From NCBI RefSeq assembly GCF_017377795.1, contig NZ_JAFRDR010000004.1:372001-436000 (forward strand): DNA of 64,000 nt, given 5' to 3'. Source of the DNA: Williamsia soli (GTDB taxonomy: Bacteria; Actinomycetota; Actinomycetes; Mycobacteriales; Mycobacteriaceae). This document shows positions 47,728 through 62,407 of this stretch, piece after piece. The stretch's first letter is position 1, and each line of letters begins with the position of its first letter. Made by a program: the position numbers and the translations under genes. The notes below the pieces were generated by a model. It worked only from the letters and a program-made list of their open reading frames with translations. It made no database searches and had not been told where the DNA came from.

Positions 47728-47837
47728 GGCGACACGCCGCAGGCTCCTCTGTCGTCCCCCTAGTGGACACGGGCCACCACCGTTTCGTAACCTTCCTGAG
47801 ACCTTACGAAAGCGTCCCCTCCAACCGGAGAGGATCG

Positions 47838-48008
47838 TGAGGTCGCCGCTCAATCACCTACCAAGGTGAGCCGGGGAACCACTGATGTCGACCACAAGTC
47901 ACATCCGGGGTGAATCCCACCGGACCCTGAGGCCGAAAGGATCTCGGGGTTCAACGGGTAGGGCCATCTTCCGGCCCGAATCCGACAGCTAACCCGGTCG
48001 GCGGACAG
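47838..48008 (+). ncRNA. c-di-AMP riboswitch (ydaO/yuaA class)
   Basis: The conserved blocks of the ydaO element occur in order: GAGCCGGGGAACCA near 47870, CCGGGGTGAATCCC near 47907, and CCCGAATCCGACAGCTAACC near 47975-47994. Closing P1 is CGCCG (47844-47848) with CGGCG (47999-48003). It is followed by AAGGAG and the GTG of the NlpC/P60 gene. These elements usually turn expression off when c-di-AMP is high, and in actinobacteria they often precede cell-wall hydrolases. Confidence 0.92.
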
Positions 48009-48033
48009 GGAAGAAACAAGGAGACCTCGCTTC

Positions 48034-48612
48034 GTGGCGAAACATCGTTTGCAACAGCCGAACCGCGGCATGAAAAGTGCCCGTGGCGCATTGATCGCCG
48101 GTTCCATCACGCTCGGCGCAATGGGGATGGCAGCTGCACCGGCCATGGCCGCACCGATCACCGTCCCAGGCGTCGGAACATTCGACATCCCGGGCGTGAC
48201 CGAGGGTCAGATCCCGAATGAACTCAAGCCCCAGAACATCCTGCCGCAGGCCGCTGCTCCGCAGGCGAAGCCCGTCGGCCAGATCGCTGCCGACGCCGCC
48301 GTGAGCAAGATCGGTTCGCCGTACGTCTACGGCGCCGCAGGCCCGGATGCCTTCGACTGCTCCGGCCTCGTCTACTGGTCGCATCAGCAGGCCGGACAGA
48401 ACATCCCGCGTGACAGCTACGGCCAGCTCGGTGGCGGCACCAGCGTGAGCGCTGCCGACGCACAGCCCGGCGACGTCGTCATCTACAACGGTGGCGGACA
48501 CGCCGGCATCTACATCGGCGGCGGCCAGGTCGTGCATTCCTCGACCGAGGGTGTGCCCGTGGCGAAGATGGGTCTCAACGACCAGTCGGTCCTCGACATT
48601 CGTCGCTACTGA
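48034..48612 (+). CDS. secreted NlpC/P60 endopeptidase under c-di-AMP riboswitch
   Basis: A 192-residue exported peptidoglycan hydrolase. The signal peptide (ARGALIAGSITLGAMGMAAA) has a likely cleavage after AMA. A proline-rich spacer follows, then the NlpC/P60 domain with the catalytic cysteine in DAFDCSGLVYWSH, the histidine in GGHAGIYIGGG and a third polar residue in QVVHSST. The domain cuts D-glutamyl to diaminopimelate links in stem peptides. There is no coiled-coil or SH3 region, unlike the next gene. The GTG start has AAGGAG ten bases before it, just after the riboswitch, so c-di-AMP should control this gene. A terminator follows. Confidence 0.95.
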   Translation: MAKHRLQQPNRGMKSARGALIAGSITLGAMGMAAAPAMAAPITVPGVGTFDIPGVTEGQIPNELKPQNILPQAAAPQAKPVGQIAADAAVSKIGSPYVYGAAGPDAFDCSGLVYWSHQQAGQNIPRDSYGQLGGGTSVSAADAQPGDVVIYNGGGHAGIYIGGGQVVHSSTEGVPVAKMGLNDQSVLDIRRY

Positions 48613-59231: not shown

Positions 59232-60014
59232 TCAGTCCTTGACCAGGCCACCGTCGACCACGAGGTTCTGTCCGGTCACCGCACGAGACCACGGTGACGC
59301 GAAGAACAGGACAGCATCTGCGAACTCCTGTGGTGTGGTGACACGTCGTAGCGGAGTGCTCTCGGCGATCAGATCGAACACCGCTTCCGGAGTCGCGGAA
59401 CTGGCATCGGTGGTGCGGAGCAATCCGCCGGAGACCATGTTGACGGTGATGCCCTCCGGTCCGAGATCCGCGGACAGGGTGCGGGTCAACGCCAGCAACG
59501 CAGCCTTGGCCGCGGTGTAATCGTGGTACGGGACCACCGGGTTCTGAACGAGGTTGGTACCGATGGTGATGATGCGGCCGAAACCCGCTTCGCGCATGCC
59601 CGGCAAGGCCGCCTGGGTGGTGTGTAGTGCGGCGGCGACGCTGCCCTTCAGTTGCGCATCGAAGTCCGGCCACGTGATCGTGTCGGCTTTCGGCCGGCCG
59701 TCACCGTTGAACGAGAAGTCGACGAGGGCGTTGTTGACGACGGTGGTGATCGGTGAGCCGAAATGCGCTCGCGCAGCGTCGAACAGGGCGGCCACCGACT
59801 CGGGTTCGGTGACATCTGCGCCGACGGCAAGTGCCTGATCGGAGCCGAGTTCGGCGACGAGGGACTCCGCGGCATCCTTGCTTCGCAGATAGTTGATGAC
59901 CACCTTCGCGCCCTGGGTGGCAAACCCCCTTGTGATCGACTGGCCGAGCCCACGGGCCCCGCCGGTGATCAGCACGATCTGCTGTTCGATGGATTGCGCG
60001 TTCTTCGACGGCAT
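59232..60014 (-). CDS. short-chain dehydrogenase/reductase under TPP control (3-oxoacyl-ACP reductase-like)
   Basis: A 260-residue classical SDR. The cofactor motif is ITGGARGLGQSITRGFA, with ADVTEPESV (NADPH-side Asp) and VVNNALVDFSF; the catalytic set is the Ser region GTNLVQNPVVPYHDYTAAKAA trimmed to Tyr and Lys in YTAAK. PLRRVTTPQEFADAVLFFAS is the usual C-terminal part, ending TGQNLVVDGGLVKD. It is of the FabG/pteridine-reductase-like type and the substrate is unknown. ATG 60014 is chosen because GGAGGG is nine bases before it; the ATG at 60023 touches that site. A TPP riboswitch precedes it, so a part in thiamine supply or precursor recycling is likely. Confidence 0.9.
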   Translation of the reverse strand: MPSKNAQSIEQQIVLITGGARGLGQSITRGFATQGAKVVINYLRSKDAAESLVAELGSDQALAVGADVTEPESVAALFDAARAHFGSPITTVVNNALVDFSFNGDGRPKADTITWPDFDAQLKGSVAAALHTTQAALPGMREAGFGRIITIGTNLVQNPVVPYHDYTAAKAALLALTRTLSADLGPEGITVNMVSGGLLRTTDASSATPEAVFDLIAESTPLRRVTTPQEFADAVLFFASPWSRAVTGQNLVVDGGLVKD

Positions 60015-60021
60015 GATGGAC

Positions 60022-60098
60022 ATCCCTCCGCCAGTACTAACTGGTCAGGTTCAGCGGGTCTGATCTCAGCCGAGAGGATTCGGCACCCCGTGTCGCCA
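60022..60098 (-). ncRNA. TPP (thi-element) riboswitch upstream of the SDR gene
   Basis: On the minus strand the conserved blocks occur in order: ACGGGGTGCC, CTGAGA, ACCCGCTGAACCTGA and GTTAGTACTGGCGGAGGGA. The 3' part contains the ribosome site GGAGGG of the SDR gene, nine bases from its ATG, so thiamine pyrophosphate binding should hide the site and block translation. No separate terminator stem was seen, in agreement with translational control. Confidence 0.95.
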
Positions 60099-60131
60099 AC
60101 AATCAGATCACAGGAGCGGGCTTGCGCGGAC

Positions 60132-60152
60132 GTCGGGCACCGGGTGCCCGAC
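60132..60152 (-). terminator. hairpin after pknL
   Basis: GTCGGGCAC (60132-60140) pairs with GTGCCCGAC (60144-60152) around CGG. It lies 27 bases past the pknL stop and before the TPP riboswitch. There is no U-tract. Inferred terminator that keeps the SDR gene independent of pknL. Confidence 0.55.
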
Positions 60153-60178
60153 AATTCGCTGCTCGAAACGCCCCGAAG

Positions 60179-62407
<2,229 letters not shown>

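Follow-up and report, generated by a model that had tools for sequence, protein, structure and literature searches.

A TPP riboswitch precedes the gene of a candidate thiamin-salvage dehydrogenase in Williamsia soli and many of its relatives

TenA is the usual enzyme of pyrimidine salvage, and both TenA and YlmB act hydrolytically, whereas the route proposed here would combine oxidative cleavage with reduction. Like that proposed route, TenA and YlmB lead from pyrimidines of thiamin breakdown to HMP (PMC10470507). TPP-controlled sodium:solute symporter (SSF) proteins, named ThiV, are proposed to be HMP importers in SAR11 (PMC11452348, PMC10881298). None of the papers searched mentions oarX together with thiamin. 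This gene, said to encode a THI-element-controlled oxidoreductase resembling 3-oxoacyl-ACP reductases, was reportedly noted by Rodionov et al. in 2002 and is not known to have been linked there to a flavin monooxygenase partner or a thiC pattern, and it is likely that the link between the dehydrogenase described here and the riboswitch has been noticed before.

The window, by which we mean the whole analysed stretch of 64,000 nucleotides from Williamsia soli (contig NZ_JAFRDR010000004.1), contains a short-chain dehydrogenase (SDR) gene with a TPP riboswitch directly in front of it. The features are as follows.

60006..60100, minus strand: TPP riboswitch aptamer (RF00059), covariance model score 64.4 bits over model positions 1-105, E 2.5e-10
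60024..60029, minus strand: Shine-Dalgarno (SD) sequence GGAGGG within the final block of conserved aptamer sequence, read from the sequence and the aptamer alignment
59232..60014, minus strand: SDR gene, 260 aa, NCBIfam NF006393 (PRK08642), score 440.1 bits (cut-off 292), start picked by SD spacing
60021..60023, minus strand: second in-frame ATG, immediately next to the SD and judged from the sequence not to be the start

As in described RF00059 riboswitches, the match (60100-60006, minus strand) spans the full model and exceeds the gathering score (64.4 against 54.3 bits); the E value refers to a search of the entire window with 4227 Rfam families. The original prediction had placed a TPP riboswitch on the minus strand ahead of the SDR gene, with all four blocks of the thi element and a ribosome site in the last of them, and the RF00059 search that it proposed bears this out: the conserved blocks CUGAGA, ACCC, GAACCUGA and GGCGGAGGGA are all found, and the last of them holds GGAGGG (60029-60024). 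To judge from this sequence match, the element is practically certain to be a genuine TPP riboswitch. Energy folding alone does not distinguish the aptamer from shuffled sequences (z 0.19), whereas the covariance model does separate it. The element differs from other RF00059 riboswitches in preceding a gene without an assigned thiamin function and in carrying the SD inside the aptamer. A gap of 9 nt separates the SD from the SDR start ATG at 60014, and the ATG at 60023 was rejected as a start since it directly adjoins the SD. Because the SD is part of the last block, and so of the ligand-binding fold, the anatomy suggests direct occlusion of the ribosome upon TPP binding. When TPP is scarce the aptamer would be open, the SD free and the SDR translated, and when TPP is bound the last block and helix P1 would cover the SD and translation would halt. 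Simple scans of 59950-60300 found no sigma-70-like promoter and no T-run terminator. A perfect palindrome, GTCGGGCACC-C-GGTGCCCGAC, is present at 60132-60152 (minus strand) between the end of an upstream kinase-like ORF and the riboswitch, and could be a terminator or an operator.

Among solved structures the SDR comes closest to other SDRs, with scores of about 115 bits. SDR sequence motifs include a catalytic Ser and a catalytic Asn. Among 36 aligned orthologues the classical motifs TGxxxGxG and YxxxK are present, with T17, G18, G22 and G24 invariant and Y166 and K170 in 36/36, and the position of the catalytic Ser is occupied by Thr in 35 and by Ser in one. The usual catalytic Asn is absent, and position 125, which aligns with the INV-motif Asn of 2ew8, holds S in 12 orthologues, T in 10, V in 5, I in 4, A in 3, C in one and G in one; Q121 was considered for this role and discarded, as the same alignment places the Asn at 125. 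Also invariant in the 36 orthologues are R21, R107, Q121, N154, H164, D165 and R200. By their sequences the orthologues are a distinct SDR subfamily, and by analogy the invariant R21 suggests use of NADP(H). Since the catalytic Asn is missing, the direction of the reaction cannot safely be read from the sequence.

Comparisons with public genomes show that the association of the riboswitch with the SDR is conserved, although not universal. Of 520 related stretches the best 80 served as SDR loci; these share 68-96% identity and derive from actinobacteria, from alpha-, beta- and gammaproteobacteria and, in a few cases, from other records. Genome scans with RF00059, in which matches were assigned to loci by coordinates, covered 63 of these 80 loci (best 80 of 520), and in 47 of the 63 a TPP match is present on the same strand within about 260 nt upstream of the SDR. 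In one further locus, L073, the match is at the head of an operon that contains the SDR, and in four (L034, L065, L075 and L078, from Achromobacter and Schauerella) it precedes a divergent symporter gene instead of the SDR. The remaining 11 of the 63 scanned loci, seven of them from Xanthomonadaceae, have no TPP match near the SDR. Outside the genome scans, 16 of the other 17 loci are negative for the TPP pattern and one (L047) is positive; three of these 17 (L017, L032 and L044) were scanned directly with RF00059 and gave no match.

A denser sample is provided by the family to which the window organism belongs, for which 301 genomes of completeness at least 90 were taken from a larger group. 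The SDR is present in 102 of the 301, and 80 of these SDR genomes, namely all 51 that lack ThiC and 29 of the 51 that have it, were examined for the riboswitch. A TPP match upstream of the SDR is found in 75 of the 80, two of the 75 falling under the gathering score. For this count about 30 rows from the lower part of the match table were checked by eye against ten SDR genes initially without a match, and direct scans of those ten gave a TPP match in five and none in five. The orthologue count that the original prediction had proposed as a check thus shows that the majority keep the element (47/63 loci; 75/80 family genomes). With RF00059 above its threshold as well, the sequence-based grounds on which that prediction could have failed were not encountered.

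Several other arrangements accompany these loci. In L018, L051, L053, L056 and L081 the SSF symporter gene and the SDR are divergent with two back-to-back TPP riboswitches between about -500 and -50 of the SDR, and in L034, L065, L075 and L078 the same divergent pair has a single riboswitch, in the same range and on the symporter side only. Two consecutive TPP matches precede one SDR gene of a family genome (G254:C34 131648-131740 and 131941-132035, minus strand), possibly as a tandem riboswitch. Locus L070 is labelled Sporosarcina, yet its neighbouring ORFs are by eye high-GC and actinobacterial, so that mislabelling or contamination is possible; because of this doubt Bacillota are not counted among the hosts. 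Four viral-labelled contigs from a viral contig collection (L198-L201) carry SDR relatives of 58-88% identity, two of them matched over only about 107 residues, and these are perhaps host DNA or cargo.

Known thiamin genes share operons with the SDR in other replicons. Nine of the 16 SDR-bearing plasmid records were read, and five of the nine regions, all alphaproteobacterial, have the order TPP-thiM-thiE-thiD-SDR: in the Neorhizobium and Gemmobacter plasmids thiM-thiE-thiD-SDR is annotated in this order with the TPP riboswitch ahead of thiM, and in three Rhizobium plasmids the order is recognised by homology. Three of the nine regions, two from Pseudochrobactrum and one from Rhodococcus, have the order TPP-SDR-LLM, in which LLM is the partner flavin monooxygenase described below, and the ninth, a Caballeronia plasmid, has an SDR with neither a TPP match nor a partner. 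Arthrobacter sp. H14 (L073) combines the two orders in one run, TPP-thiM-thiE-thiD-SDR-LLM. Membership of a thiamin salvage operon under TPP control is therefore found in five plasmids and one Arthrobacter, and not in the window, and the SDR and LLM sit with thiamin salvage genes in two phyla. The proposal that the SDR is an uncharacterised enzyme of the thiamin pathway or its salvage gains support from these orthologues under TPP control in thiM-thiE-thiD operons, and further support from the greater frequency of the SDR in genomes without thiC, kinship being ignored. The SDR had also been described as lone, which holds for the window and for some other lineages and fails elsewhere, where its partners are thi, transporter or monooxygenase genes.

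LLM is an FMN monooxygenase of the NtaA/DmoA family (NtaA/CmoJ-type, TIGR03860), two examples of which, at 510 and 539 bits, exceed the model's cut-off of 280. It lies directly downstream of the SDR in 41 of the 80 loci (best 80 of 520), a count that includes L049, in which it is cut by the contig end, and L073, in which the match is split over two frames and the gene is possibly broken or misread. In one locus (L042) the SDR-LLM pair has no TPP match. Three genomes of the genus Dietzia, one of them Dietzia massiliensis, carry LLM (73% identity) apart from the SDR and with its own TPP riboswitch of 68.5-69.6 bits, which argues that LLM belongs in its own right to the TPP regulon that it shares with the SDR. 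Solved structures nearest to LLM include those of YtnJ, of the nitrilotriacetate, EDTA and dimethyl-sulfide monooxygenases, of DszA and of riboflavin lyase; an alkane monooxygenase and a hexachlorobenzene dehalogenase are also in this group. Several of the enzymes oxidise a carbon that adjoins N or S and thereby free a carbonyl, and riboflavin lyase acts in this manner on a vitamin. Riboflavin lyase, NtaA and YtnJ (PDB 5w48, 3sdo and 1tvl) were identified as relatives of LLM by sequence. The titles and abstracts listed by a literature search contained no description of an SDR-LLM module. In two Pseudochrobactrum plasmids (L189 and L197) a gene for acetolactate synthase, itself a TPP enzyme, is located close to TPP-SDR-LLM.

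Transporter genes are also found nearby. An SSF gene is present in 23 of the 80 SDR loci (best 80 of 520) and is preceded by a same-strand TPP match in 22/22 of the SSF loci that were scanned, and in a single Cryobacterium locus a gene of the NMT1/THI5 type (ThiY-like) lies close to a TPP match. These SSF genes resemble the TPP-controlled ThiV of SAR11 (PMC11452348) at the level of the family. The SSF protein of L018 passes the Pfam SSF model (73 against 23 bits) and falls below the TIGR00813 cut-off (100 against 184 bits).

The co-occurrence of the SDR with the two halves of thiamin synthesis was followed in a set of 45 SDR genomes; the SDR has the TPP pattern in 43 of them and lacks it in two, both from Luteimonas. 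ThiG and the TMP-TENI (ThiE) family are each present in 45/45 and ThiC in 33/45, one of the 33 (G031) having only a fragment of about 54 residues. Within the 301 family genomes, 51 have the SDR without ThiC, 51 have both, 28 have neither and 171 have ThiC alone, such that ThiC is missing from 51/102 genomes with the SDR against 28/199 without it (Fisher p 6e-11, kinship ignored). A single genus contributes 31 of the 51 SDR genomes that lack ThiC, and five other genera are mixed. An LLM orthologue accompanies the SDR in 43/51 genomes lacking ThiC against 10/29 having it (p 1.4e-5, kinship ignored) and in 18/20 of the former after removal of the dominant genus; eight of the 51 have no LLM orthologue. 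The best SDR tree requires at least 18 changes of ThiC state, with 13 of its 75 inner branches well supported, and an independent-pairs test of ThiC against LLM on this tree is not significant (six supported pairs, median p 1). The ThiC pattern supports, without proving, a supply of pyrimidine by the SDR and LLM.

The window genome presents a simpler picture. The original prediction noted no thi gene near the SDR, and tblastn at E 1e-5 agrees, finding none of thiM, thiE, thiD, LLM or SSF in the window. The genome has three TPP matches, that of the SDR and two on another contig, one of them with a thiE homologue on one side and, on the other, an ORF resembling thiO by eye, and the second just upstream of thiC with 49.8 bits, under the cut-off. 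The sole ThiC match of the genome and the thiE-like and thiD-like genes are on that same contig, and because of these genes the organism probably makes thiamin, with the SDR as an addition. No LLM orthologue at E 1e-150 is found in the window genome or in the eight genomes of its own genus that were searched. The best LLM match in the window genome, at 47-48% identity, was set aside, as Rhodococcus sp. P-2 has similar matches (49-51%) in addition to an LLM of its own. Of the parts of the module the window genome thus has the SDR only, with thiC kept. The SDRs nearest to that of the window, among the best 80 of 520 relatives, have 93-96% identity and come from Williamsia records.

Gene content and context make it very probable that the SDR serves thiamin salvage, and it probably works on the pyrimidine side of thiamin. 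A plausible scenario is that an SDR of the NADP(H) type turns 4-amino-5-formyl-2-methylpyrimidine into HMP, which would feed ThiD and ThiE; we infer both substrate and reaction and offer this step tentatively. Where LLM is present, it would oxidatively cleave a pyrimidine-CH2-N or -CH2-S compound, such as a thiamin breakdown product or a thiaminase adduct, and so free the aldehyde, and the substrate could be imported by the TPP-controlled SSF symporter or a ThiY-type system. Taken as a whole, a TPP-switched SDR that reduces the pyrimidine aldehyde to HMP, with LLM as the source of the aldehyde where present, is the best explanation available to us, and we consider it about evenly poised between right and wrong. 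More speculatively still, the SDR and LLM, with an SSF or ThiY-type importer, might constitute an undescribed TPP-controlled oxidative route from CH2-N and CH2-S pyrimidine compounds (thiaminase-I adducts, damaged thiamin) to HMP, letting many soil and plant-associated bacteria drop thiC and keep thiazole synthesis.

Other roles for the SDR can be weighed against this scenario. The presence of thiM in the SDR operons, where it is the first gene of thiM-thiE-thiD-SDR, makes a thiazole substrate possible, for example with the SDR reducing the aldehyde of 5-(2-hydroxyethyl)-4-methylthiazole to the alcohol for ThiM; this is unlikely, as ThiG is present in 45/45 SDR genomes and it is ThiC that is missing, in 12, and the SSF neighbours and the one ThiY-like (NMT1) gene are of kinds linked to HMP (PMC11452348, PMC10881298). 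A similarly unlikely role for the SDR and LLM is one in damage control, in which damaged thiamin, or a trapped intermediate (hydroxyethyl-thiamin, for example), would be cleared or repaired and no precursor supplied. TPP control and the occurrence of the SDR in genomes that keep ThiC, that of the window included, agree with such a function, as does the cleavage of C-N and C-S bonds by relatives of LLM, but it predicts neither enrichment in thiC-lacking genomes nor operons with ThiD, ThiE and ThiM.

A reversal of the two steps, with the SDR oxidising an alcohol to the carbonyl and LLM then inserting oxygen in a Baeyer-Villiger type of reaction, appears rather improbable. In its favour, SDRs catalyse reversible reactions and there are luciferase-like monooxygenases that act in this way, but the invariant R21 suggests by analogy NADP(H), and hence reduction, and most LLM family members with solved structures are dealkylases and desulfurases. 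The notion of a FabG-like fatty-acid reductase that lies behind a riboswitch by chance derives from the NF006393 name, 3-oxoacyl-ACP reductase, and is most improbable: the SDR scores 133.3 bits against the cut-off of 297.75 for the FabG model TIGR01830, linkage of the SDR to TPP riboswitches is seen repeatedly, across two phyla and within thi operons, and the gene contexts found lend the name no support. The TIGR01830 score and these contexts led us to reject a FabG role.

With the proposed salvage role, an orphan gene under riboswitch control would acquire a pathway, partners and a class of substrate that can be tested. If the proposal is correct, thiC-lacking genomes scored as thiamin or HMP auxotrophs may have an extra salvage route, which would matter for how vitamin B1 is exchanged within soil and marine communities, and new names would be needed for two families, annotated as a fatty-acid reductase and a generic flavin oxidoreductase.

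Elsewhere in the window we note a c-di-AMP riboswitch (RF00379) at 47837-48018 on the plus strand, with 74.2 bits. The ORF just after it (48034-48612) appears by eye to encode a small secreted protein of the NlpC/P60 type, and a c-di-AMP riboswitch before a gene of this type is an ordinary arrangement in actinobacteria.
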